41,970 nt of DNA from NCBI GenBank assembly GCA_021325035.1, contig JAJPHW010000016.1, positions 1-41,970 of the forward strand, in the 5' to 3' direction. Positions 3,379-31,901 of this stretch are shown here, piece by piece; position 1 is the first letter of the stretch, and every line of letters begins with the position of its first letter. Source of the DNA: Terriglobia bacterium. GTDB taxonomy: Bacteria; Acidobacteriota; Terriglobia; Terriglobales; Acidobacteriaceae. The notes under the pieces were generated by a model that had not been told where the DNA came from, made no database searches, and saw nothing but the letters and a program-made list of their open reading frames with translations. The position numbers were made by a program, and so were the translations under genes.

Positions 3379-4833
3379 TTATTGGCAAACCTGCCGATTG
3401 GCAGGTTCGAATTGGTCAAGTTGCGCGTCCCGTTGCAGGGAGAATTTTCCGCCCGGAGTTTTTCCATACATCGGCGATCCTGGGCAGTAGTAAAGAGCGG
3501 TGTGCAAGTCAATCCAGACCTGTGTATTGGGATTCCCTAGGTTGGGCGGTTGCGGTGGGGGGTCAGCCAGTCCTACAGCCACCAGACTTCTTTCAAATAA
3601 ACTTAATTGCGGTTTTGCTGGTTGTGCAGATGTTGCTGCATTGGCGGAGATGCCGCGATTTGAGGAGTGAGTCCCCCAACCGGAGAGCACTGCCAACAGC
3701 AACAGAGCGGAGAATGCCAGATAAAAATTCGCCCGATTGGCATGCCATTGTTTCGACAGCCAGACAAATCCAGATTTTTCAGGACGCAAAGTTTCCAGCC
3801 ATTGCCGTGTGGATGTGGCCGACATCCACGGGGCCTTCGGTTCTTCCATGGCAACCGGCACAGATTCCGAATCCAATTCTTCCGCTTCGGTGATACTTAG
3901 GGCTGTTTGTATGGGAATGAAGGGCGCTTGTGGTATTACCTGAGGAATCGGCGCTACCTTTTCCTCGACGAGCGCAGTCTCAGAAGCTTTGAATTCATCT
4001 CCCAAGCGTGCGCTTGAGAAAACCGGTTCGTGATTGCTGAACTCTGCGGCGGAAAATTGAGTAGGTGGAACTTCTGACAATGGAGCCGGGGCCGTATCTA
4101 CAGTGGCGGTGGGCGAAATCAAGCGCTCGATCTGCGGCTGAATCGCATCCAGCGCTTCAAGCATGGTTGTGCGTTCCGCAGCCACGGTTTCCTTCCAGGC
4201 TATCTGCGCCGCGCGAACGATGGCATCGCGCAACAAGCTAGCCATCAACTCGGCAATGCGGACATCCTGCGCGCTGAATGCTTCCTTGCGGTCGGATGTG
4301 AGTTCCAGCACGCCTTCAATTTTTCCCTCATATTGCACTGGAATCAGAATCAACGAGCGAATGCCCTGTGCGCGGTAAAGCTCGGCGTTCAGTTCCGGAG
4401 TTGTGTTTACATCGGAACTCAACACGATCTTGCCGTACAAAGCTGAATCGGGTAACAAAACCGGCGCAGCGACGGACTGTGAAATGGGAACGCGCGTTCC
4501 GGGTTCGACTGCCGCGCTGCCGCTGGTGGAAGAGAAAATCAGGAAATTATTTTCGACGATCCCGATTGCGGCACTGTTGGCGTTTACGATGGCCCGAGCT
4601 TTTTCGACGATCAACTCGGCTGTTTCCGCCAAATCGAGCTTTTGCAGCTGTATGAATTTTTGGGTTTCAACGACCTCGCCGAGCGGATCAGCATGGGTGG
4701 GTAATGGCTGATTTACGCTGGTTTGTTCAGCATTGTGCTGCTGTAACACATATGCAGACTCCAGCAACTGCTGAAACGTCTGTTCGTCGAGGGCCAGCTT
4801 CTTTCCGGTTTTATCTTTATCCTGCGAACTCAC
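3379..4833 (-). CDS. GAF domain, single-TM protein with C-terminal Cys-containing outer module
   Basis: About 484 residues. A GAF domain lies near residues 68-205 (from LAETAELIVEKARAIV to LLRDAIVRAAQ), followed by a long Pro/Ala/Glu-rich linker, one membrane helix near residues 380-400 (FYLAFSALLLLAVLSGW), and a short outer domain ending the protein. The last 45 residues read VWIDLHTALYYCPG, YGKTPGGKF, then a Cys two residues from the end, resembling small secreted modules of the YxCPGxxxYGxT type; the paired cysteines may form a disulfide. The start is GTG 4833 with AGGGGA just upstream; extending to 4974 adds a non-conserved-looking leader and would pass a -10-like TACAAT at 4885-4890. It lacks the cysteine triad of the GAF domains at 11013 and 16095. 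It follows the efflux operon by 153 bases. The ligand is unknown. Confidence 0.78.
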   Translation of the reverse strand: MSSQDKDKTGKKLALDEQTFQQLLESAYVLQQHNAEQTSVNQPLPTHADPLGEVVETQKFIQLQKLDLAETAELIVEKARAIVNANSAAIGIVENNFLIFSSTSGSAAVEPGTRVPISQSVAAPVLLPDSALYGKIVLSSDVNTTPELNAELYRAQGIRSLILIPVQYEGKIEGVLELTSDRKEAFSAQDVRIAELMASLLRDAIVRAAQIAWKETVAAERTTMLEALDAIQPQIERLISPTATVDTAPAPLSEVPPTQFSAAEFSNHEPVFSSARLGDEFKASETALVEEKVAPIPQVIPQAPFIPIQTALSITEAEELDSESVPVAMEEPKAPWMSATSTRQWLETLRPEKSGFVWLSKQWHANRANFYLAFSALLLLAVLSGWGTHSSNRGISANAATSAQPAKPQLSLFERSLVAVGLADPPPQPPNLGNPNTQVWIDLHTALYYCPGSPMYGKTPGGKFSLQRDAQLDQFEPANRQVCQ

Positions 4834-4986
4834 ACTTCCCCTGCTCGGTCTTGCACCACACTGCGTGCCACCGGATGTCTCATTATTGTAGAGCAACGAG
4901 CATGTGTTTCGCAGGGAGAAACACTGGCAAGCGATTGATTTCAGTAACTTAGGTACCCAGAAGAGAACTAGCAAATTAGCGTTGCA

Positions 4987-11012: not shown

Positions 11013-12701
11013 ATGCAAATTTCTCCACCCAAGCCAGAGAGGACGAGTTCCCAACCACCTCCTGCGCGTGAGCGCCGTCGCCGTTTGCGGCATCGCGTTC
11101 ACACCCCGGCGTATGCCAGCCTGAATCAGTCCAGAGGCGCGATGCTTGATTTGTGCGCGATTCTTGATTTGAGCGAGGAGGGCATGTGCCTCCAAAGCCC
11201 GGTTCCGCTGGAGACCAATCGCCGCATTGATTTGCTGTTGGACTTCTCGGAGACCAAGAGCCGGATCCCAGTTACAGGTTTTGTCGTTTGGTCCGACCGT
11301 ACTGGCCGGGCCGGTATTCGCTTCGAGAACTCGACGGAAGCGCCTTTATCTGAAAATAAAATGCAGGCGCTCAAGGAGTGGCTGTTCGTCAATGCCATTA
11401 CGGCGTGGATGCATAATGCTCCAACGCGGCCCATGAATGTTGCTGCACCGCGAAGCGCGGAAGAATCCAGTTCGCCCTCTGCGCCCGATTTTACAGGTCT
11501 GCTTGCTGCGGTGGATGCTGTAAAACGTGAAGTCGAAGCTTTGGGGCCGAACTTGGATGCCGCACTGCGATTGATTGCGGAACGCGCCGCAGATTTTACT
11601 CAGGCCTCGGGTGCGGCCATTGCCATTGCGGACTTTGAGAGTTCCCGTCTTCCCGCGTCGGCAGTGCAAGAAATGACGTGCCGTGCCCGCGCTGGCACGG
11701 ATGCGCCAGACCTCGGTGCTCGATTACAAGTCGGTTCGGGGTTTTCAGGGGAATGTGTTCGCACGGGCAGATTGCTTCGCTGTGAAGACACCGAATCCGA
11801 CCCACGTGTGGACCAGGCCAACTGCCGCGCGCTGGGTATTCGTTCGATTGCAGCGGTACCGGTACGTTCGGGCAACTTTATTGCGGGACTTCTGGAAGTT
11901 TTCTCTCCTGCACCGCACGCATTTGACACAATCCCGAGTCCAATTTTTCTTCGACTGGCGGATGCGGCTTCATTTGCGATTCACCGCGCTGCTAAAGCCA
12001 TGGTCAAAGAGCATAGTTCCGCGGAAACTTTACGCAGGGAAGCAGCTACCGCAATACCACGGCCTTCCACCAAAAATTTCTGGCCTGAGCGAATTGTTCC
12101 GGATAATGATCCTGACGTTCCCGCGCTGATGGAAAGCGCTTCTGCGGAGCAACCGATGTCGCCCCTACGGCGAATCTTGCTCTTTGCAGTAGCTCTAACG
12201 TTGATTCTTGTTGTGGTGTGGTTGATTAAGACGTGGCCGGCGCATCCTACCCCGCAAGGCGTTGATACAAACCATCCAGTTTCTGCTGCGCCAAATTCGG
12301 CGACGCCTTTGCCCGTCGGCATGGATGGATTGCGCCAGTTGGCTACTCAAGGCGATCCCGCGGCGGAATTTGCCCTCGGCGTCCACTATGCGACGGGAGA
12401 CGACGTGCCCCAAGACTATAGTGAAGCCGTCCGTTGGTTTTCCATGGCAGCTGAACAGGGGCATGTAATGGCACAGGCCACACTCGGCGCGTATTACTGG
12501 GCTGGGCGTGGCGTTCCTCAGGACATGCAGAAAGCCTACTTCTGGGCGGTGCTCGCGCAAGCGGGCGGGGATGAGGCGAGTAAAGTTCGGGTCCAATTTT
12601 TGACTTCCCGCATGACGCGTACGCAGATCCTGGCTGCCCAACAACGCGCCAACGACTGGATCAAAGAACACCAGTTGATGACTGCTAAGCCCACTACTTA
12701 A
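11013..12701 (+). CDS. PilZ-GAF-TM-Sel1 repeat protein
   Basis: A 562-residue multidomain protein. Residues about 22-110 form a PilZ domain: an Arg-rich stretch (RERRRRLRHR) precedes DLSEEG, matching the c-di-GMP-binding RxxxR and (D/N)xSxxG motifs. A GAF domain occupies about 165-325 and contains Cys248, Cys257 and Cys271 with C-x8-C-x13-C spacing. One membrane helix lies near 385-406 (LLFAVALTLILVVVWLI). After it come two or three Sel1/TPR-like repeats (about 445-540), including AEFALGVHYATGDDVPQDYS and AQATLGAYYWAGRGVPQDMQ. By topology the sensors are cytoplasmic and the Sel1 scaffold is outside. ATG 11013 has AAGGCG close upstream. It is divergent from the efflux operon. The role is inferred as a c-di-GMP-responsive envelope scaffold; the GAF ligand is unknown. 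Confidence 0.85.
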   Translation: MQISPPKPERTSSQPPPARERRRRLRHRVHTPAYASLNQSRGAMLDLCAILDLSEEGMCLQSPVPLETNRRIDLLLDFSETKSRIPVTGFVVWSDRTGRAGIRFENSTEAPLSENKMQALKEWLFVNAITAWMHNAPTRPMNVAAPRSAEESSSPSAPDFTGLLAAVDAVKREVEALGPNLDAALRLIAERAADFTQASGAAIAIADFESSRLPASAVQEMTCRARAGTDAPDLGARLQVGSGFSGECVRTGRLLRCEDTESDPRVDQANCRALGIRSIAAVPVRSGNFIAGLLEVFSPAPHAFDTIPSPIFLRLADAASFAIHRAAKAMVKEHSSAETLRREAATAIPRPSTKNFWPERIVPDNDPDVPALMESASAEQPMSPLRRILLFAVALTLILVVVWLIKTWPAHPTPQGVDTNHPVSAAPNSATPLPVGMDGLRQLATQGDPAAEFALGVHYATGDDVPQDYSEAVRWFSMAAEQGHVMAQATLGAYYWAGRGVPQDMQKAYFWAVLAQAGGDEASKVRVQFLTSRMTRTQILAAQQRANDWIKEHQLMTAKPTT

Positions 12702-12765
12702 CTCGGCATCTTCGCAAGGATTTCCGAGCGCTCCATTGCGGGTTTACCATATAAAAAAGGCTTTT

Positions 12766-13881
12766 ATGCCGACGCTTCGTGAAGTCGTCGATGAAAATGT
12801 CCGTGAAGGCGTTCTCTACGAAAAATTAGACCGAAATCGCGTTCGCTGCTTCGCTTGTGGACATTGCTGTCCCATTCCCGACGGTCAACCCGGCGTTTGC
12901 AAAGTCCGCTACAACCGGGGCGGCACGCTCTACGTCCCCTGGGGTTATGTCGGAGGAGTGCAATGCGACCCTATCGAGAAGAAACCATTCTTCCATGCCT
13001 ATCCCGGCGCTCTTGCGTATAGTTTTGGCATGTTAGGGTGCGATTTGCATTGCGCCTACTGCCAGAACTGGGTGACTTCCCAAGCGTTACGCGATCCGCG
13101 AGCCGTTTCGCAGCCGCTGAGCGCAAGTCCAAAGGGGCTCGTCAAAGAAGCTATAAATCTAGGCGCGAAGGTTTTGGTCAGCACCTACAACGAACCGCTC
13201 ATCACTGCTGAATGGGCTGTCGAAATTTTTAAAGAAGCAAAATCTGCCGGCCTGATTACAGGATTCGTCTCTAACGGCAACGCTACGCCTCAAGTCCTCG
13301 AATACCTGCGCCCGTGGATTGATCTCTACAAAGTGGATCTAAAAAGTTTTGACGATCAGCATTATCATGAGCTCGGCGGGCGCATCGGGCCCATTCTCGA
13401 CACGATTTGCCGCTTGTATGAGATGAAAGTCTGGGTTGAAATCGTTACGTTGTTGATTCCCGGCTTCAACGATTCATCCGATGAATTGCAAAAGCTCGCA
13501 GAGTTTTTGGCCGGTATTTCTCAGGATATTCCCTGGCACATCACCGCCTATCATCACGACTACAAAATGAATGATCACCGTAATACAAACGCCGATGATC
13601 TGATGCGCGTTGCAGAGATCGGCAAAGCAGCAGGATTGCGCTACGTTTATGCGGGAAATCTGCCGAGGCAAGTTAGTGACCTAGAAAATACTTACTGCCA
13701 CGTTTGCTCCACGCTGTTGATCGAGCGCGATGCATATTTTATTAAAGATTATCGCCTCACTAAGAATGGCAGTTGCCCATCCTGCGGCACTGCTGTTCCC
13801 GGACGTTGGGCCGAAAAATTCTCAAGCCAAATCACCGGTCAGCCATTCCTTCCTGGGCGCAACCGCTTTATCACACTGTAA
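12766..13881 (+). CDS. amrS: AmmeMemoRadiSam system radical SAM enzyme
   Basis: A 371-residue radical SAM protein of the AmrS group, related to pyruvate-formate-lyase activating enzymes. The [4Fe-4S] cluster motif is Cys92-x3-Cys96-x2-Cys99 in GCDLHCAYCQNW. An N-terminal Cys-rich element (Cys28, 31, 34, 35, 45; CFACGHCCPIPDGQPGVC) and two C-terminal CxxC pairs (CHVC and CPSC) may hold metal. Other family signatures are STYNEPLITAEW, YKVDLKSFDDQHY and ITAYHHDYKMND. The substrate of this family is not settled; it is named for co-occurrence with AMMECR1 and Memo proteins, neither of which is in this window. The ATG at 12766 has AAGG at suitable distance; an upstream TTG at 12736 is less likely. 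Confidence 0.9.
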   Translation: MPTLREVVDENVREGVLYEKLDRNRVRCFACGHCCPIPDGQPGVCKVRYNRGGTLYVPWGYVGGVQCDPIEKKPFFHAYPGALAYSFGMLGCDLHCAYCQNWVTSQALRDPRAVSQPLSASPKGLVKEAINLGAKVLVSTYNEPLITAEWAVEIFKEAKSAGLITGFVSNGNATPQVLEYLRPWIDLYKVDLKSFDDQHYHELGGRIGPILDTICRLYEMKVWVEIVTLLIPGFNDSSDELQKLAEFLAGISQDIPWHITAYHHDYKMNDHRNTNADDLMRVAEIGKAAGLRYVYAGNLPRQVSDLENTYCHVCSTLLIERDAYFIKDYRLTKNGSCPSCGTAVPGRWAEKFSSQITGQPFLPGRNRFITL

Positions 13882-13983
13882 ACGCGAGCGATTTGGGAGC
13901 ACCCTCTTATGCCCCACGGTCATGCAGAATAAATTTCCCATTTGCCACAACGGCCATCCGCACGATATATCTCTTTGCAGCTC

Positions 13984-16092
13984 ATGATGATCCAAAAATC
14001 TCTCCCCCTACTTCTCGCCGTTATCTTTTTTGCTGTTTTCACGCAAGCCGAGACAAAACCCAAGCTCTCGCTCGACGAGTTTTTCAATTACGCTTTTTAC
14101 GATGCGATTGCTCTTTCGCCGGATGGTCACGCTCTCGTTCTGGTGACTGATCGCCCCGATTGGGACCAAAATATTTTCCGCAACGAACTTTACCTCTACC
14201 GCGATGACGGCCGGGGACTGATTCAACTTACCCAATCCGGCAAAGACTCGCATCCGCAATGGTCGCCCGACGGCGCGTGGATAGCATTTTTATCCGAAAG
14301 AAAGTCGGATGCCGGCAAAACCGATTCTTCCGACGACGACAAGAAGAGCGAAGACACTTCTCAGCTCTTTGTGATTTCGCCCAATGGCGGCGAGGCCATC
14401 CCCATTACAACGGGTGATGAAGAGGTTCATTCCTTCGCATGGTCCGCTGACTCGAAGACGCTTTACTTTGCAACGCGAACGCCATGGACAAAGTCACAAA
14501 AAGACGCACATAAAAAAGAATGGAAGGACATTCAACGCTATCGTGGTGACGAGCGTGGTGACACGATCTTTAGCATAAATTTCGCTGGAGCTCTCGCGCG
14601 CCGTGCGGGACTTGGTAAAAAGCCGGCAGATGATTCGGAAGAAGACACTACGTTAACGCCAGGCTCGATTGCGATTTCTGCCACGCCTTGGCGCGTTAAA
14701 GAGCTTATAGCTTCGCCCGATGCTCATCAACTTGCTTTTGTAAGCGAATCGGTTTCTCAACGGGACGAGCGCGTAAACGAATTCGAAATTTTCACCATAG
14801 ATTTGACGAAAGCGGCTTCCGCACCGCACCAGGTCACTCACAATGAGGCCGTCGAGGAACAGATTCGCTGGTCGCGCGACGGACACCATATCTTTTTCAC
14901 GATTGAAGTCGGCTCGGTGGAAGGGAAGTATGAAGATACGCAGCCCCGCCTCTATTGGGCAGATGCGAGTACGGGTGAAACGCAGCGCTGGGCCAGCGAT
15001 TTCAATGGCATGATTGTGCATTATGCGGTTACCGATGACGGTGTTCTCGCCCTCGGCCGTATCGGGACGGAAGTCCAAGTCTATGCGCAATCCAGCCCAT
15101 CGAAGCCATTCATCAAGCAAGCTGGATGGCCCGGCACTTACGATCTCATCGCAACCAGCGATCATTCACCGCGCATCGCAGTGCTGCACTCAACCATCGA
15201 AAAGCCGCTTGAAGTTTATTGGGCCAATGACATTGCAAAACTTGCACAAGCCCAGCCAGTGACTTCATTTAATCAGCTTTTCACTGAGCGCGAACTTCCT
15301 CGTGCGAAACCTTATCAATGGAAAGCAGATGATGGGACCACCATTGAAGGCATGTTGATGTACCCGCAGGGAAAATTTGAAGCCAAGAATTTGCCGATGT
15401 TTGTCTTTATTCATGGTGGCCCGGCCGATGCGGACGGAAATCACTTTGAAGCCGATTGGTATGTGTGGGACCGCCTCGCCGCCGGCCAAGGCTGGCTTGT
15501 ATTTGAACCGAACTATCGCGGTTCGACCGGGTACGGCGACAAATTCCTGGCGGGTATTGTCCCGCAAATCGTTTCCCGCCCCGGCAAAGATATTTTGGAG
15601 GGAGTGGACGCTCTCGTGAAAGATGGCATCGCCGATCCCGCTCATCTCGCCATTGGCGGATACAGCTATGGCGGCTACATGACCAACTGGCTCATCACGC
15701 AAAGCACACAATGGAAGGCTGCCGTCACTGGCGCAGGGTCGGTCGAACACGTCGCCGACTGGGGAAACGACGACACAACTTTCGACGACGCATATTTCCT
15801 TGGCGGATTACCCTGGGAACAACCGAAACGTTATCAGGATGAAGCTGCAATCTTTCAGATGAACAAAGTCCGGACTCCTACGCACATCGTTTCCGGTTCA
15901 GACGATATTCGCGTCGCGGTTGCTGAAGATTATCTGCTCGAGCATGCCTTGCATAATTTGGGTATCCCAAGTGAGCTGCTGATTTTCCCAGGGGAAGGCC
16001 ATTCGCTCGACAAAAATCCCTGGCATGGGAAAATTAAAGTAAGAGAAGAGTTGAAGTGGTTGCAGAAATACGGGGGAATTCCAGAGCAGTAA
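13984..16092 (+). CDS. S9 family peptidase (prolyl oligopeptidase / acylaminoacyl-peptidase type)
   Basis: About 702 residues. A signal peptide (MMIQKSLPLLLAVIFFAVFT, ending near QAE) indicates export. The first half is a WD40-like beta-propeller with repeats such as ALSPDGHALVLVTDRPDWDQ and SHPQWSPDGAWIAFLSERKS. The C-terminal half is an alpha/beta hydrolase: HGGPADADGN forms the oxyanion region, GGYSYGGYM carries the nucleophile near Ser561, SGSDDIRV the Asp, and PGEGHSL the His. It should cleave short peptides in the periplasm. The start is one of two adjacent ATGs (13984 or 13987); the ribosome binding site is weak, and an upstream TTG at 13942 would put 14 residues ahead of the signal peptide. 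It lies about 100 bases after amrS on the same strand. Confidence 0.92.
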   Translation: MMIQKSLPLLLAVIFFAVFTQAETKPKLSLDEFFNYAFYDAIALSPDGHALVLVTDRPDWDQNIFRNELYLYRDDGRGLIQLTQSGKDSHPQWSPDGAWIAFLSERKSDAGKTDSSDDDKKSEDTSQLFVISPNGGEAIPITTGDEEVHSFAWSADSKTLYFATRTPWTKSQKDAHKKEWKDIQRYRGDERGDTIFSINFAGALARRAGLGKKPADDSEEDTTLTPGSIAISATPWRVKELIASPDAHQLAFVSESVSQRDERVNEFEIFTIDLTKAASAPHQVTHNEAVEEQIRWSRDGHHIFFTIEVGSVEGKYEDTQPRLYWADASTGETQRWASDFNGMIVHYAVTDDGVLALGRIGTEVQVYAQSSPSKPFIKQAGWPGTYDLIATSDHSPRIAVLHSTIEKPLEVYWANDIAKLAQAQPVTSFNQLFTERELPRAKPYQWKADDGTTIEGMLMYPQGKFEAKNLPMFVFIHGGPADADGNHFEADWYVWDRLAAGQGWLVFEPNYRGSTGYGDKFLAGIVPQIVSRPGKDILEGVDALVKDGIADPAHLAIGGYSYGGYMTNWLITQSTQWKAAVTGAGSVEHVADWGNDDTTFDDAYFLGGLPWEQPKRYQDEAAIFQMNKVRTPTHIVSGSDDIRVAVAEDYLLEHALHNLGIPSELLIFPGEGHSLDKNPWHGKIKVREELKWLQKYGGIPEQ

Positions 16093-16094
16093 TC

Positions 16095-18290
16095 CTAATT
16101 TCCACTCGGACGCGTTAAACTTGCCGTTGTCCGGTGGAGTGAGGCTTCGTATTTCGCAATTCCTTGATACAAAGCCTCAGCCAACTGCTGGCGGTAAGTG
16201 GAGCTTTGCAGATTGGTTTCATCGGTGGGGCTGCTGACAAACGAAACCTCGGTCAGTACCGCCGGCATCGTCGCGCCGGTCAGTACAACATAGGAAGCCT
16301 CTTTTACGCCCCGGTTTGGTACTTCGCTTTTCGCCGCAACCGCATGATAAAGCGACTGCTGAATGTCAGTGGCGAACCGCTTCGAATCATCAACCTTCTC
16401 GCGGATGTTAACGTTCGTCCAACTCACATCCAATGGGGCTTTCCCGCCGCTGGCGTCCGGGGTGCGCGCATGCACCGAAGAGTAAGTATTGGTGTAGTAA
16501 GTCTCAACTCCGCGCGCAGACGGGAAGTCGCTATAGTTGGCGTGAACCGACAAAAACAAATCTGCCTTCGACAAGTTCGCTACTTCAGTTCTTTTTTCTA
16601 ACGGCACATAAACATCGTCAGAGCGCGTATAAACCACCTCCGCGCCTAGTTTGGTCTCGACCAGCTTGCCCAGCCGGCCCACAATGTCGAGCACTAAATC
16701 TTTTTCCAGCAATCCCTGCCGGCCGACCGTACCCAAGTCCCATCCACCATGGCCCGCATCCAAAACGATTCGTAGTTTTGGCATGGCCGCGACAATCTTT
16801 GCCGGATGATTTTCCGCCGCTGCACTCACTGCCGCTTCCTGCGCAGTAATCGGCGGATTCGCTGGACCGAATAAATCAACTTTCGCCCTCGCCTGCGGCC
16901 TCGCATCGGGGCTGCGTACTTCGACAACCAGGCGATACGGATTTTGTTCCAGACTCACCGTAAAGTTCACTGAGGTTGTTGTTTCCAGCACCACGCGGGT
17001 GGTGCCCGGGGATAGTTCCGCCGCGCGCACGCGCAACAAGAGGGGATCGCCAATCTCGATGTAGCGGTTTAACTTCGCATCCAGCTTTGTATCGTGCAAA
17101 TCGAAATAAATCCGCTCAGGATCATTCAAACGATGGGCTTCATATTGCACCTGATCCTGCAAATCAATCACGACCGTACTGGAGTCTGGCGAGGACCAAT
17201 GCCGAATCCCGGTAATCGCGAGCAATTCCGAAGGATCGCGTGGTGTGACTGGCAGGGACGCTGGGACGGGAGTTTCGAGCAAAGGCGCTGGTTTCGACGT
17301 GCTTACGTTTGCGGGAATAGTGGCCGCTGCATTCGAAGGGTGTGCCCCATTTCTGCTGCGTACTCCCCACCATGTTCCAGCACTCACCAAGAGCGCCGCC
17401 ATGACGGCCAGCCCAATCCACAACCCGCGCCGTGAATCTTGGACTTCCGCCGGCGCTGGAAGAATTTCGGGTGGCGCTTCTCTCGCCAGAACTTCAATTT
17501 TTCCTCTGGTTTCAACCCTTGCCGGAATCGCGGCGGCAGGTTTCATCGAAGGCACGGGAGCTGCAATCGAATCTGGCGGTTTTGTCGGGAGTCGCCGGAT
17601 GGGTTCTACCGCGCCTCCACGCCGCACAACCCGGCGCGAAATTTCCGCCATGCGGTCTTCTTCTTCGGGTTGCAGCGCGGCCAGCACCAACTCAGCCAGC
17701 AGATTCAAACTGCGAACGTCGGTATCTTTAAAATGCCGTGCATCTTTTGCGAAAGCTTCGATTAAGCCAATGACTGTCTGCTTGGCCCATAGCGGAACCG
17801 CCACCATGGAGAGGCTTCCCAGCTTTCGGCAAATGTCCGGGTTTACCCGTGGGTCAGTTTGCGCATCATCACAGCGCACCACGCTGCCGCTCGACAGGCA
17901 AGCGCCGGAAAAACCGTAATTCGGGTTGACGGTCGCGCCTTTGTCGGGAGTGATGGTTCCAGCGACCGCGCGGCATAGGACCGCGCCGTTCTCAGCGAGT
18001 GCAATGGCGACTCCGTCCGCTTTGGTGATCGCCAGCGCACGTTCGGCCACCAATTGCAAAACTTCATCCAAAGCGAAGCGGTCTTGATTAAATCGAGAAG
18101 GTGAAGAGGGCTCAGCCCCTTCTTGAGCTCCACGGTTGCGAAGTTGTTGCTGCAGCGCAGCAAAGGCCAGCAGCGCCTCCAACGCATCGCGCCCGGGTGC
18201 CGCATTCTTTGCGGTCTTCGCGGACGCGGGCGGCCAAGGGCTTTGTTCCGCGGCGGGTTCTCCAGGCGTTTTGTAGGTGCTGGCGTTCAT
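16095..18290 (-). CDS. GAF-TM-AMIN-N-acetylmuramoyl-L-alanine amidase fusion
   Basis: About 731 residues. It begins with a cytoplasmic part holding a GAF domain (about 70-205) with Cys131, Cys140 and Cys154 in C-x8-C-x13-C spacing. A basic, proline-rich linker leads to one membrane helix near 289-309 (GLWIGLAVMAALLVSAGTWW). An AMIN-like domain follows (about 357-460; ITGIRHWSSPDSSTVVIDLQ), which in known amidases targets the septum or peptidoglycan. The last part is a zinc-dependent Amidase_3 domain (about 506-725) with DAGHGG, a Glu in LLEKDL, SVHANYS and the catalytic Glu in VLTEVSFVSS, so the catalytic set is complete. It should cut the amide bond between muramic acid and the stem peptide outside the inner membrane. 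The start is placed at ATG 18290; a TTG frame extends to 18356, and neither has a strong ribosome site. Confidence 0.87.
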   Translation of the reverse strand: MNASTYKTPGEPAAEQSPWPPASAKTAKNAAPGRDALEALLAFAALQQQLRNRGAQEGAEPSSPSRFNQDRFALDEVLQLVAERALAITKADGVAIALAENGAVLCRAVAGTITPDKGATVNPNYGFSGACLSSGSVVRCDDAQTDPRVNPDICRKLGSLSMVAVPLWAKQTVIGLIEAFAKDARHFKDTDVRSLNLLAELVLAALQPEEEDRMAEISRRVVRRGGAVEPIRRLPTKPPDSIAAPVPSMKPAAAIPARVETRGKIEVLAREAPPEILPAPAEVQDSRRGLWIGLAVMAALLVSAGTWWGVRSRNGAHPSNAAATIPANVSTSKPAPLLETPVPASLPVTPRDPSELLAITGIRHWSSPDSSTVVIDLQDQVQYEAHRLNDPERIYFDLHDTKLDAKLNRYIEIGDPLLLRVRAAELSPGTTRVVLETTTSVNFTVSLEQNPYRLVVEVRSPDARPQARAKVDLFGPANPPITAQEAAVSAAAENHPAKIVAAMPKLRIVLDAGHGGWDLGTVGRQGLLEKDLVLDIVGRLGKLVETKLGAEVVYTRSDDVYVPLEKRTEVANLSKADLFLSVHANYSDFPSARGVETYYTNTYSSVHARTPDASGGKAPLDVSWTNVNIREKVDDSKRFATDIQQSLYHAVAAKSEVPNRGVKEASYVVLTGATMPAVLTEVSFVSSPTDETNLQSSTYRQQLAEALYQGIAKYEASLHRTTASLTRPSGN

Positions 18291-18496
18291 GAGACAAGTG
18301 GGCGCTTGCAACTTGCCTGTAGCCTGTAACTTACAAGGATTCCGGCAGATGCGCAATGGTTCTTCGCGAGGCTAATCCAAATGGGCAGCTTCGTTTTGAT
18401 AGAGTCGGCACTCACAAGTTCTGTTTTTCTTGCACTTGGGCCGGTTTCGGCATACCCTTGTCTTGTTGCCCGGTTCTTCGCGGCAGGACGGACGCA

Positions 18497-18802
18497 GTGG
18501 AAAAGAAGTCGAATTGGTTGTGGCCTTTGGGGTTGGTGGTGACCAGTGTTGCCGCAGCCTCTGTCGTAGTTTTTCGCGGTTGCTGGCACCGCAAAATGAG
18601 CTGGCCGCTCCGCTCTCAAGGATATTCCTATCAGGTCTGCACCGGCTGCGGCATAAAACGCCTCTTCGACGAAAAATTGTTTCGCGCCTATGGCCCCTAC
18701 AGCTACGATCTCGCCCGCTTGATTCACCGCGCTCAGCAGTCCCGCCCCGCGCGCGTCACTGAAGTTCCCGCACCGCCCTCCGAACAGCGCCCGGCTTCCT
18801 AG
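18497..18802 (+). CDS. Small conserved single-TM protein with Cys pair
   Basis: About 101 residues with one membrane helix at residues about 7-29 (WLWPLGLVVTSVAAASVVVF) followed by a compact Cys/Trp-rich segment: GCWHRKMSWPL, GYSYQVCTGCGIKRLFDEK, then FRAYGPYSYDLARLI and a low-complexity tail. The CxxC plus the earlier Cys and His could bind zinc. The GTG at 18497 has AGGA upstream and places the helix at the N-terminus; an open frame reaches 18356 but its extra sequence looks random. It diverges from the amidase fusion and its stop overlaps the opposing PilZ gene by four bases. I recall similar proteins in related acidobacteria but know no function. Confidence 0.68.
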   Translation: MEKKSNWLWPLGLVVTSVAAASVVVFRGCWHRKMSWPLRSQGYSYQVCTGCGIKRLFDEKLFRAYGPYSYDLARLIHRAQQSRPARVTEVPAPPSEQRPAS

Positions 18803-19473
18803 CGCGCAAAATACTGCCGTTCGAGCCACAGCTGTAAATCCTTTTTCGCCCGATCTTTGATTCCGACAAACTTAATTCCGGCATTGCCCTGAGGATCGTT
18901 CCACACGACTTCTCCCCGGACCGAGAGCGGCAGAGTACTTCCAGGCAGCGCGAAATTGACTGTAAGGGAACTTGCGATGGGCACTTCTTTTTTACTGCGG
19001 ATGCCGATGCCGCCCTGGCTCAAATTTATTAATTCCGCATCCAAGCGCTTCTTCGGACTGTACTCCACATACATCGGCAAGTTGAGTGTAGCGCGATGAT
19101 AGCGCAGCCTGCCGCCAACCATATTGTTGCGCGCCGCAGAAAGCGTATGCACCGCTTCCTCCACGGAGATTGGCTTTTGCAGCATGAAGTCCGGTACGGC
19201 ATCTTTCAATTTAGAAAACCCATGGGCCCGCGCCATGAATGCCACGGGCATCATGGCCTGGTTTGGACGTACCCGCAGTCCTTCCAGCACGCCGTCTGAT
19301 CCAGCAAGGTCGCAATCTACAATGAGCGCGACAAATTTCGCCGACGCCAGTTTTTCGCGCGCTTTTTCCGGACGCGGTTCGACATCCACGCCAATTTCCA
19401 TGCCGCCCAAAATACATTCCAGTACGCTAACTTCTTGCCAGTCGCGGGAAACAATCATTGAGGAAAGTGTCAT
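18799..19473 (-). CDS. Receiver-like plus PilZ domain protein
   Basis: A 224-residue protein. Residues about 1-115 look like a response-regulator receiver fold: FVALIVDCDL carries the phosphoacceptor-like Asp near residue 53-55 and FMLQKPIS carries the conserved Lys. The acidic pair normally found after the first strand is missing (MIVSRDWQEV), so the receiver may be degenerate. A PilZ domain follows (about 119-220) with INLSQGGIGI matching (D/N)xSxxG; the upstream Arg motif (RLRYHR) is only an approximate RxxxR. It is therefore a candidate c-di-GMP effector with altered phosphorylation control. No histidine kinase gene is adjacent. Its stop overlaps the convergent small membrane protein gene through the palindrome CTAG. 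Confidence 0.78.
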   Translation of the reverse strand: MTLSSMIVSRDWQEVSVLECILGGMEIGVDVEPRPEKAREKLASAKFVALIVDCDLAGSDGVLEGLRVRPNQAMMPVAFMARAHGFSKLKDAVPDFMLQKPISVEEAVHTLSAARNNMVGGRLRYHRATLNLPMYVEYSPKKRLDAELINLSQGGIGIRSKKEVPIASSLTVNFALPGSTLPLSVRGEVVWNDPQGNAGIKFVGIKDRAKKDLQLWLERQYFAR

Positions 19474-30709: not shown

Positions 30710-31762
30710 TTACTTCATCACGCCGCGTTGCGCAATGCCGATATTATCGCGGCTGGTGTTCTTGACGAGATACATCATTTCATCGGCCTGCCGGATTACA
30801 TCATGTGGTGTCTTCGCGTCATGCGGATATGTCGCGACGCCCATGGATGCGCGTACGTTGATATTTAGTCCTTCATCTTTGCAGAACATGCTGGTACGCA
30901 AACTGTCACGCAGGCGCTTCGCCACGACCAAAGCCTGATCTTTGCCGGTTTGCGGGAGTAGAACAACAAACTCATCCCCGCCGTAACGAAAGGCATAATC
31001 AATCAATCGCAGTTGTGCTTTGATGAGATACCCAATCTCCGCCAGCAATTTGCTGCCGATGAGATGCCCATGCGTGTCATTTACTTGCTTGAAATGATCG
31101 AGATCAATGAACACGACGGTGAACTCATACCCAAACCGTGCCGACCGGTAGACTTCTGTTTCCAGCGTCTTATAAAGATGCCGCGCATTGTAAAGGCCGG
31201 TGCAGTCATCTGTAATGGTCAATTCTTGAATGCGTTCAACAGCGCGCGCATTTTCAATTGCGATGGCCGCGTAGTCACACAGCGACTGTAAGAAAAATTC
31301 TTCCTGCGCGCCAAAGTGATTCATGTCCACATTCACAAGTTGAATCACGCCCAGCACCCGCAACCGCGACCTTAAGGGTACGCAAATGATGGATTGCGTC
31401 TCCCACTTCGTCATCTCATCGATTCTTTTCGCAAATCGCGGATCGTTCATTACATCGGGAACAATCACTTTTTCGCCGTTCTTTGCGACGTAGCCGGCGA
31501 TGCCTTCTCCCACCTTAAGCCTCACATTCTTCAGAGCTTCGGAGGCACTGCCCACGGCAATCGCAAAATATAGCTCATCGCGCTCTTCATCCACCATTAA
31601 TAACGACCACGTGTCTGGGCGGAAATATTCCGCCATCTTCTCCATGATTGTTTGCAGAATGGAATCGAGCTCCAGGGAAGACGTGAGGGTTTTCGCCACA
31701 TCATGAAAGATGTTGAGTTCCAGGTTTTGCCGGTTCAACCCCACACCTGTGGCCTCGCTCAT
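30710..31762 (-). CDS. Diguanylate cyclase with N-terminal GAF domain
   Basis: A 350-residue cytoplasmic enzyme that makes cyclic di-GMP from two GTP. Residues about 15-175 are a GAF sensor (NIFHDVAKTLTSSLELDSIL to FLQSLCDYAAIAIENARAVE); residues about 180-350 are a GGDEF domain with intact active site GGDEF at 261-265. An inhibitory site RLID at 252-255 lies exactly five residues before it, so product feedback inhibition is expected. It has no membrane segment. The ATG at 31762 has AGGGTGA upstream; a longer frame to 31867 adds unrelated-looking sequence. Two PilZ proteins in this window (11013 and 18799) are possible receptors of its product. The GAF ligand is unknown and it lacks the cysteine triad found in two other GAF proteins here. 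Confidence 0.94.
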   Translation of the reverse strand: MSEATGVGLNRQNLELNIFHDVAKTLTSSLELDSILQTIMEKMAEYFRPDTWSLLMVDEERDELYFAIAVGSASEALKNVRLKVGEGIAGYVAKNGEKVIVPDVMNDPRFAKRIDEMTKWETQSIICVPLRSRLRVLGVIQLVNVDMNHFGAQEEFFLQSLCDYAAIAIENARAVERIQELTITDDCTGLYNARHLYKTLETEVYRSARFGYEFTVVFIDLDHFKQVNDTHGHLIGSKLLAEIGYLIKAQLRLIDYAFRYGGDEFVVLLPQTGKDQALVVAKRLRDSLRTSMFCKDEGLNINVRASMGVATYPHDAKTPHDVIRQADEMMYLVKNTSRDNIGIAQRGVMK

Positions 31763-31901
31763 GAAACCATCACCCTTTTTGCTGCGCGAAAGTACTCCGA
31801 TTATAGGTTCCGGCCGTAAGCGGGAGCAATGCACCTTGGTAACATGCACCCTCGTAAGTGCAGGCAATCAATGACTTACACCAAATCATCGTATTCCGGC
31901 C

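Follow-up and report, generated by a model that had tools for sequence, protein, structure and literature searches.

Why should a putative cell-wall amidase and a PilZ protein with Sel1 repeats carry GAF domains with the same set of cysteines, and what might these residues do there? The question is raised by positions 1 to 41,970 of contig JAJPHW010000016.1 from a Terriglobia bacterium of the Acidobacteriaceae (GCA_021325035.1), a stretch that is called the window here and is always meant at its full length of 41,970 nucleotides. It encodes a PilZ-GAF-transmembrane (TM)-Sel1 protein and, on the opposite strand, a GAF-TM-AMIN-Amidase_3 protein. A preliminary description of the sequence had reported three cysteines with identical C-x8-C-x13-C spacing in the two GAF domains, and reading out the codons bears this out. 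A fourth shared cysteine, located in the motif CRAxAGT and absent from that description, extends the common spacing to C-x24-C-x8-C-x13-C; the four columns are termed C1–C4, the earlier triad being C2–C4. In the surrounding motif, given as GxGFSGxC...RCxDxxxDPRVxxxxCRxLG, the spacing is correct, but the leading GxG fails for the amidase GAF, which has NYG. Similarly, the numbering Cys131, Cys140 and Cys154 applies to the amidase protein when counted from the ATG at 18290, but not from the TTG at 18356. With the 18290 start, C1–C4 are the sole cysteines in its 731 residues.

One GAF subclass joined to several outputs

Both GAF domains score above the PF13185 curated cut-off of 28.6 bits (55.2 and 52.6 bits) and share 38% identity, while all NCBIfam models stay below their cut-offs across the GAF, where a weak NifA match (16.6 bits) is found. 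The family resembles the GAF domains of Pfam PF13185 and PF01590 in scores and fold and differs from them by the four cysteine columns. The sequences confirm that the likeness of the two domains exceeds chance and identify them as paralogues of one GAF subclass, because they combine this degree of identity with a group of their own for each within the paralogous family and with a high cysteine density in the GAF domains of the orthologues.

A search of the source genome with the amidase GAF yielded six places: the amidase, the PilZ protein, a third GAF-TM protein, a diguanylate cyclase, a zinc-ribbon-like-GAF protein (L011) in which C1–C4 are all present, and a GAF-zinc-ribbon-like-TM protein (L012) in which C4 is replaced by Ser. 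The label zinc-ribbon-like refers to CxxC pairs read in the sequence, L011 having no such Pfam match. At the level of the phylum, a profile of four sequences (A3) matched 173 of 297 genomes at E 1e-8, with rows of at least 80 bits coming from 16 genomes; within the GTDB family, a profile of 22 rows (A4) had matches in 131 of 250 genomes at E 1e-14, the richest of them with at least 14 places. These per-genome matches are lower bounds, as no more than 12 or 14 candidates were scored for each genome. Entries named Terriglobia, Acidobacteriaceae, Acidobacteriales, Acidobacteria and Ca. Sulfotelmatobacter contain the relatives of the amidase protein, and nearly all of these entries are metagenome-assembled genomes.

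The domain occurs in zinc-ribbon-like-GAF (36), GAF-TM-AMIN-Amidase_3 (25), PilZ-GAF-TM-Sel1 (22) and GAF-zinc-ribbon-like proteins (20, mostly with a TM helix), as well as in PilZ-GAF proteins without a TM helix (10). Pfam matches add single examples of GAF with TonB_C (L144, L049), PilZ-GAF with TonB_C (L053), GAF-AMIN without amidase (L058), GAF-GGDEF (L023, L024) and a PAS-GAF hybrid histidine kinase (L069). On a GAF tree of 85 domains, with at most 10 per group, labels of small groups assigned by hand, an unsupported root and several long branches that meet, architecture labels change 14 times, where 13 is the minimum and shuffling gives a mean of 62.2. The amidase, PilZ+Sel1, PilZ-only, GGDEF and TonB groups and both zinc-ribbon-like groups require one change each, while 'other PilZ' (three changes) and 'AMIN only' (two) are loose groups. 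Like the tree of the AMIN-amidase part considered below, this tree is a quick search. The near-minimal number of changes indicates that one subclass has been combined with several outputs and that most of these combinations are stably inherited. At the sequence level, it is shown that a single GAF subclass has multiplied in Terriglobia and has been coupled to many outputs, of which several follow a TM helix. The earlier proposal of one sensor type feeding several outputs stands as far as the several partners are concerned, which are more numerous than it envisaged, both in Pfam matches and on the GAF tree; the sensor role is presumed. The open-licence literature, among the matches listed, contained no report on this GAF family, on GAF-amidase fusions or on acidobacterial cysteine GAFs.

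Cysteine turnover around C3

The preliminary description had interpreted the triad as a conserved Fe-S, zinc, heme or redox-sensing site. Its conservation was assessed in a cysteine-blind set, collected with six peptide patterns that exclude C1–C4 and with a search profile whose cysteine columns were masked; 74 of the resulting 80 loci contained GAF+AMIN+amidase orthologues. C3 is Cys in all 74 and represents one of 12 invariant columns among 145. C2 is Cys in 65 (Ser in 5, Ala in 3, Gly in 1), C4 is Cys in 47 (Ala in 15, Ser in 9, Thr in 3), and C1 is Cys in 45, Leu in 28 and a gap in one. Ranked by conservation, C2 is column 49, C4 column 98 and C1 column 101, the latter two lying below the median column. 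Thus, C3 alone among the four is invariant in the orthologues, and with C2, C3 and C4 occurring together in 42 of 74, a conserved triad serving as an Fe-S, zinc or heme site is not supported as stated. C3 is accompanied by at least one of the other three in 73 of the 74 orthologues, and the exception is truncated ahead of C1. At the same loci, 17 PilZ+Sel1 proteins have C1, C2 and C3 in 17 of 17 each and C4 in 13, and the zinc-ribbon-like-GAF proteins have Cys at C3 in six of six.

A second set of 175 distinct domains was retrieved with profiles that contain the cysteines and taken from the top-scoring rows, and is therefore biased towards cysteine; 139 domains of at least 100 bits and 128 of at least 170 bits were tallied as family. 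Among the 128, Cys is found at C1 in 112, at C2 in 97 (Ser in 20, Ala in 11), at C3 in 128 and at C4 in 119, and all four cysteines are combined in 73. The groups 'none' (9 rows) and 'Sel1 only' (4 rows), to which L248 and L244 belong, were left out of the main counts; L244 (130 bits) has Cys at C3 and has lost C2 and C4. The fetched sets overlap in part, as judged from contigs of equal lengths and places. The alignments contain the two window GAFs with 90 of 94 filtered domains (A5), or the window with 35 of 74 (A6).

A tree of the AMIN-amidase part, built from 75 rows, implies a single change at C1, six at C2 and five at C4. All 28 rows with Leu at C1 carry a Cys directly after VPL (for example L239, L201 and L197; alignment column 153), and most rows without C4 carry cysteines at other columns. 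In these sequences, C3 stays fixed while cysteines at the surrounding columns are gained and lost from clade to clade. An obligate cluster of three or four cysteines would not show such a pattern, which also leaves room for plain drift. An apparent compensation between C1 and C4, C4 being lost in 0 of 28 rows with Leu and in 26 of 45 rows with Cys at C1, is not put forward here: it traces to the single change at C1, and the pair test gave no signal. The extra cysteines after VPL and in the rows without C4 are subject to the same clade confounding.

Outside the phylum, tblastn located the subclass on plasmids of Burkholderiaceae, Methylobacteriaceae and Paenibacillus, with nine weak records for the amidase GAF, and 19 and 22 records for two other members; a single-protein scan of viral contigs detected no relative. 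The Paenibacillus relative runs on into GGDEF-like sequence, as read by eye, and several other plasmid relatives are annotated as PAS domain proteins. In 13 plasmid loci fetched, of up to 22 records, C1 is Tyr in 13, C2 is Cys in 13 and C4 is Cys in nine. In a different family of acidobacterial GAFs (f23), C1–C4 read Tyr-Cys-Cys-Cys. Judging by these sequences, cysteines at C2 and C4 are more widespread, and Cys at C1 together with a fixed C3 appears to mark the Terriglobia radiation, a direction that is presumed on a tree with an unsupported root.

A presumed cytoplasmic pocket and its possible chemistry

In the 74 amidase orthologues, cysteine reaches 2.57 per 100 residues inside the GAF and 0.06 after it, a 40-fold difference, and 52 of the 74 have no cysteine at all after the GAF. 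This distribution is consistent with a GAF in the cytoplasm and the rest of the protein in the periplasm, which is the topology we infer for the amidase protein. A hydropathy scan (threshold 1.8) called the TM helix in 24 of 25 amidase-type proteins and missed it in the window protein, where it is seen in the full-length model. In this model, pLDDT (predicted local distance difference test) values are below 50 at residues 227–288 and 313–349, which flank the helix. The GAF-to-TM linker spans 23–240 residues in the amidase orthologues (median 100; rich in Ala, Pro and Glu) and 28–69 residues in 22 PilZ+Sel1 proteins. Signalling through a rigid TM helix is unlikely because the linker is long and predicted to be disordered; recruitment or dimerisation is preferred as the probable mode of action. 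A helix ahead of the GAF (ALxALLAF..., model residues 32–56) is conserved in the amidase orthologues and could be a dimerisation or partner site.

Both outputs retain their characteristic residues. In Amidase_3, H536, E551, H605 and E703 (753-residue numbering) are conserved in 74 of 74 orthologues; we take these positions to be the Zn ligands and the catalytic Glu. The protein resembles the AmiC/AmiA-type N-acetylmuramoyl-L-alanine amidases in its AMIN and Amidase_3 domains, with the best stretches to AmiA (8c2o) and AmiC (4bin) covering residues 1–207/209 of 221 and spanning the insert; the NCBIfam AmiC model matches with 136.7 bits, below its cut-off of 700. It differs from them by the GAF placed in front and joined via a TM helix. 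AmiA/B/C-type amidases have an autoinhibitory helix through which a LytM partner activates them. The amidase gene is adjoined by a gene for a PilZ protein (18799–19473, PF07238), which is present in 35 of 80 amidase loci. Ahead of the GAF, the PilZ protein of the window contains RxxxR and DLSEEG, and in the PilZ+Sel1 proteins this region has, by a loose pattern, RxxxR in 22 of 22 and [DN]xSxxG in 21 of 22, presumably the PilZ receptor motif for cyclic diguanylate (c-di-GMP). The source genome has 15 GGDEF matches. The gene for the PilZ-GAF-TM-Sel1 protein adjoins an AmmeMemoRadiSam radical SAM gene (12736–13881), which is found in 37 of 80 amidase loci, many of them truncated.

The AlphaFold2 model of the amidase GAF, the one GAF modelled on its own, was built from 92 rows and reached a pLDDT of 87.9 and a predicted template modelling score of 0.82. 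Foldseek and VIA-align 2 assign it the GAF fold, with a best E of 3.7e-11 to solved GAFs and with 2qyb as the best VIA-align 2 match (Z 19.4). In domain-model numbering, C1 (C54) lies in strand β2 (51–59), C2 (C79) in helix 74–82, C3 (C88) in strand β3 (86–88) and C4 (C102) in helix 99–105. In GAF-B of CyaB2, as described in an excerpt of PMC4411481, the sheet forms the base of the pocket, which is covered by helices α3 and α4, and α4, α3 and β3 become less mobile upon cAMP binding. By analogy, the two model helices would correspond to α3 and α4, and the model makes it likely that C2, C3 and C4 are located on elements that close the GAF pocket.

A leading though tentative reading is that these proteins share a cytoplasmic, thiol-bearing GAF pocket with C3 as its core thiol, which feeds many outputs. 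The pocket would be lined by C2 on its helix, C3 on β3 and C4 on the next helix, with C1 on β2. C3 would be the working thiol, and the other cysteines replaceable helpers that serve as resolving thiols or ligand contacts. The GAF may then read a thiol-reactive, redox or thiol-coordinated small signal that alters its dimerisation or partner recruitment rather than rotating the TM helix, and this could alter where amidase, Sel1 or TonB_C modules are placed or how many there are; in the PilZ-GAF-Sel1 protein, the GAF input would be combined with c-di-GMP. The wider proposition is more doubtful: an undescribed thiol-sensing GAF subclass acting as shared cytoplasmic input for at least eight outputs in Terriglobia of soil. 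In that case, the GAFs would control peptidoglycan amidases, as well as TonB-like and Sel1 proteins of the envelope, from the inside out and side by side with c-di-GMP.

The cysteines might equally lack any thiol chemistry, a real possibility in which C1–C4 are pocket or core residues of an ordinary small-molecule-binding GAF that drift between Cys, Ser, Ala, Tyr and Leu, are inherited from a widespread subclass and reside in a compartment in which cysteine does no harm. Several observations weigh against a thiol sensor and fit such drift. At C2 and C4, Cys mostly gives way to small residues (Ser, Ala, Thr, Gly), as ordinary pocket packing allows, and at C1 to Leu, in the six, five and one changes mentioned above, with C1 and C4 also ranking low among the 145 columns. 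Other columns gain cysteines by clade, as after VPL in the rows with Leu at C1, and four columns with Cys in 17, 13, 31 and 13 of 74 orthologues attest to general cysteine turnover. Even C3 is Ser in two of the 139 domains of at least 100 bits (Cys in 137), and in L248 (128 bits), which has no recognised output. The plasmid relatives carry only some of the cysteines, and their C3 is Cys in two, Ser in eight, and Ala, Val and Leu in one each; with Cys in only two of 13, C3 thiol chemistry is not a property of the whole subclass. Drift accounts less well for a C3 that is Cys in every amidase orthologue and in all 128 domains of at least 170 bits, though relatives have Ser, or for the joint occurrence of C1–C4 in 73 of these domains, a figure taken from the cysteine-biased set. 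On the sequences, thiol or pocket sensing leads as a candidate mechanism, unproven and level with plain pocket residues.

A metal site, with the cysteines ligating zinc, iron, an Fe-S cluster or heme, is improbable, even though C2, C3 and C4 lie on likely pocket elements of the model and sensor domains with iron are known. According to the excerpt of PMC6949291, the GAF of Chloroplast Sensor Kinase (CSK) binds [3Fe-4S] with one cysteine ligand identified; CSK/Hik2 resembles the family, by description rather than alignment, in the conserved Cys within the GAF of a redox sensor, and differs by its kinase output. AirS and NorR likewise hold Cys ligands within N-terminal sensor domains, the AirS sensor kinase binding [2Fe-2S] through C-x7-C-x-C-x17-C and the NorR GAF binding Fe via Arg, three Asp and one Cys (excerpt of PMC4601167). 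The AirS spacing differs from C-x24-C-x8-C-x13-C, and NorR Cys113 falls on another strand, away from C1–C4, in an alignment too weak to judge equivalence (hhalign probability 11%). C3 is followed in the amidase orthologues by invariant D, D, D and R residues, but Asp and DPR also occur in ordinary GAFs in the alignments. The incomplete triad and the 15 orthologues with Ala at C4 argue against a cluster, as do orthologues that retain C3 with one other of the four (xxCC in five, CxCx in three). CSK suggests that a single Cys may be enough for an Fe-S centre in a GAF (PMC6949291, excerpt), which leaves a metal site at C3 alone some probability.

A catalytic GAF of the free methionine-R-sulfoxide reductase (fRMsr) kind, or a sensor descended from one, is very improbable. 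The fRMsr proteins (MsrC/YebR; type II of Thermoplasma) share the GAF fold and cysteines around the pocket, the Thermoplasma type II enzyme 4mmn is the best Foldseek match of the model (VIA Z 18.4), and C4 aligns one residue from the catalytic Cys. However, many other GAFs reach Z 15–17, the family GAFs sit in multidomain proteins, and the active-site cysteines are absent: E. coli MsrC has cysteines at GKIAC, GVCG and IACD (which we take to be residues 84, 94 and 118), none of which aligns with C1–C4, and in the window GAFs the GVCG Cys corresponds to Ser and the catalytic IACD Cys to Arg. Membership was rejected on these cysteine positions. The source genome also encodes a separate stand-alone fRMsr-like GAF (L257, contig 43), whose GICG and LACS cysteines resemble those of type II fRMsr. 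Chance or convergent likeness of two unrelated GAFs is hardly credible: GAFs are common, with 31 PF13185 matches in the source genome, but the identical four-cysteine spacing, the identity of the two domains and their nesting in a family across the GTDB family already contradict it.

The thiol-pocket reading would be of interest because the near-fixed C3 and the replaceable other cysteines offer a direct mutational handle on thiol chemistry in a GAF pocket. A cell-wall amidase and a cytoplasmic GAF on one polypeptide look unusual, no such fusion being found in the open-licence literature among the matches listed, and the family ties the amidase to c-di-GMP and TonB-like outputs in abundant, poorly studied soil bacteria.

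Further GAF proteins and coordinates

The absence of C1–C4 from the third GAF-TM protein of the window and from the diguanylate cyclase GAF was noted from the start and is confirmed. The third protein clusters with L050, L030 and L080 (99% in the Shimodaira–Hasegawa-like approximate likelihood ratio test; long branches meet there), and its C-terminal part is common to L050 (45%) and L030 (55%). L030/L064 retains C2, C3 and C4, while L050 and L080 retain C4 only, and this distribution in the sequences makes it likely that the window copy lost its cysteines. Its conserved end, approximately VWxDLHTALYYCPGS...YGKT...QRxAQLDQFEPA, is common to L050 and L030. Table 1 lists the coordinates.

Table 1. 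Positions of the GAF proteins, their domains and the shared cysteines in the window
Feature	Position	Strand	Remarks
PilZ-GAF-TM-Sel1 protein, 562 aa	11013..12701	+	Pfam PilZ 23-111, GAF_2 180-324, Sel1 in two stretches
GAF domain of PilZ-GAF-TM-Sel1	11550..11984	+	GAF_2 58.5 bits
C1, Cys223 of PilZ-GAF-TM-Sel1	11679..11681	+	
C2, Cys248 of PilZ-GAF-TM-Sel1	11754..11756	+	
C3, Cys257 of PilZ-GAF-TM-Sel1	11781..11783	+	most conserved cysteine of the family
C4, Cys271 of PilZ-GAF-TM-Sel1	11823..11825	+	
Single TM helix of PilZ-GAF-TM-Sel1	12174..12230	+	hydropathy; presumed topology
Sel1 repeat, best of two stretches	12357..12464	+	PF08238; presumably periplasmic
GAF-TM-AMIN-Amidase_3 protein	16095..18356	-	Pfam, model; likely start 18290 (731 aa)
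GAF domain of amidase protein	17670..18071	-	GAF_2 56.8 bits; AlphaFold2 pLDDT 87.9
C1, Cys106 of amidase protein	17973..17975	-	strand β2 of model
C2, Cys131 of amidase protein	17898..17900	-	helix 74-82 of domain model
C3, Cys140 of amidase protein	17871..17873	-	strand β3; Cys in 74/74 amidase orthologues
C4, Cys154 of amidase protein	17829..17831	-	helix 99-105 of domain model
TM helix, model residues 287-313	17352..17432	-	full-length model
AMIN domain	16929..17207	-	PF11741
Amidase_3 domain	16155..16769	-	Pfam
Third GAF-TM protein	3379..4974	-	diverged paralogue without C1–C4
GAF-GGDEF diguanylate cyclase	30710..31867	-	GAF without C1–C4; not counted in family

In L116, L117, L119 and L131, a zinc-ribbon-like-GAF gene is found beside the PilZ-GAF-TM-Sel1 gene on the same strand, with about 1 kb between the GAFs; in the source genome, the zinc-ribbon-like-GAF gene is located on a different contig (C127) from the PilZ-GAF-TM-Sel1 gene.

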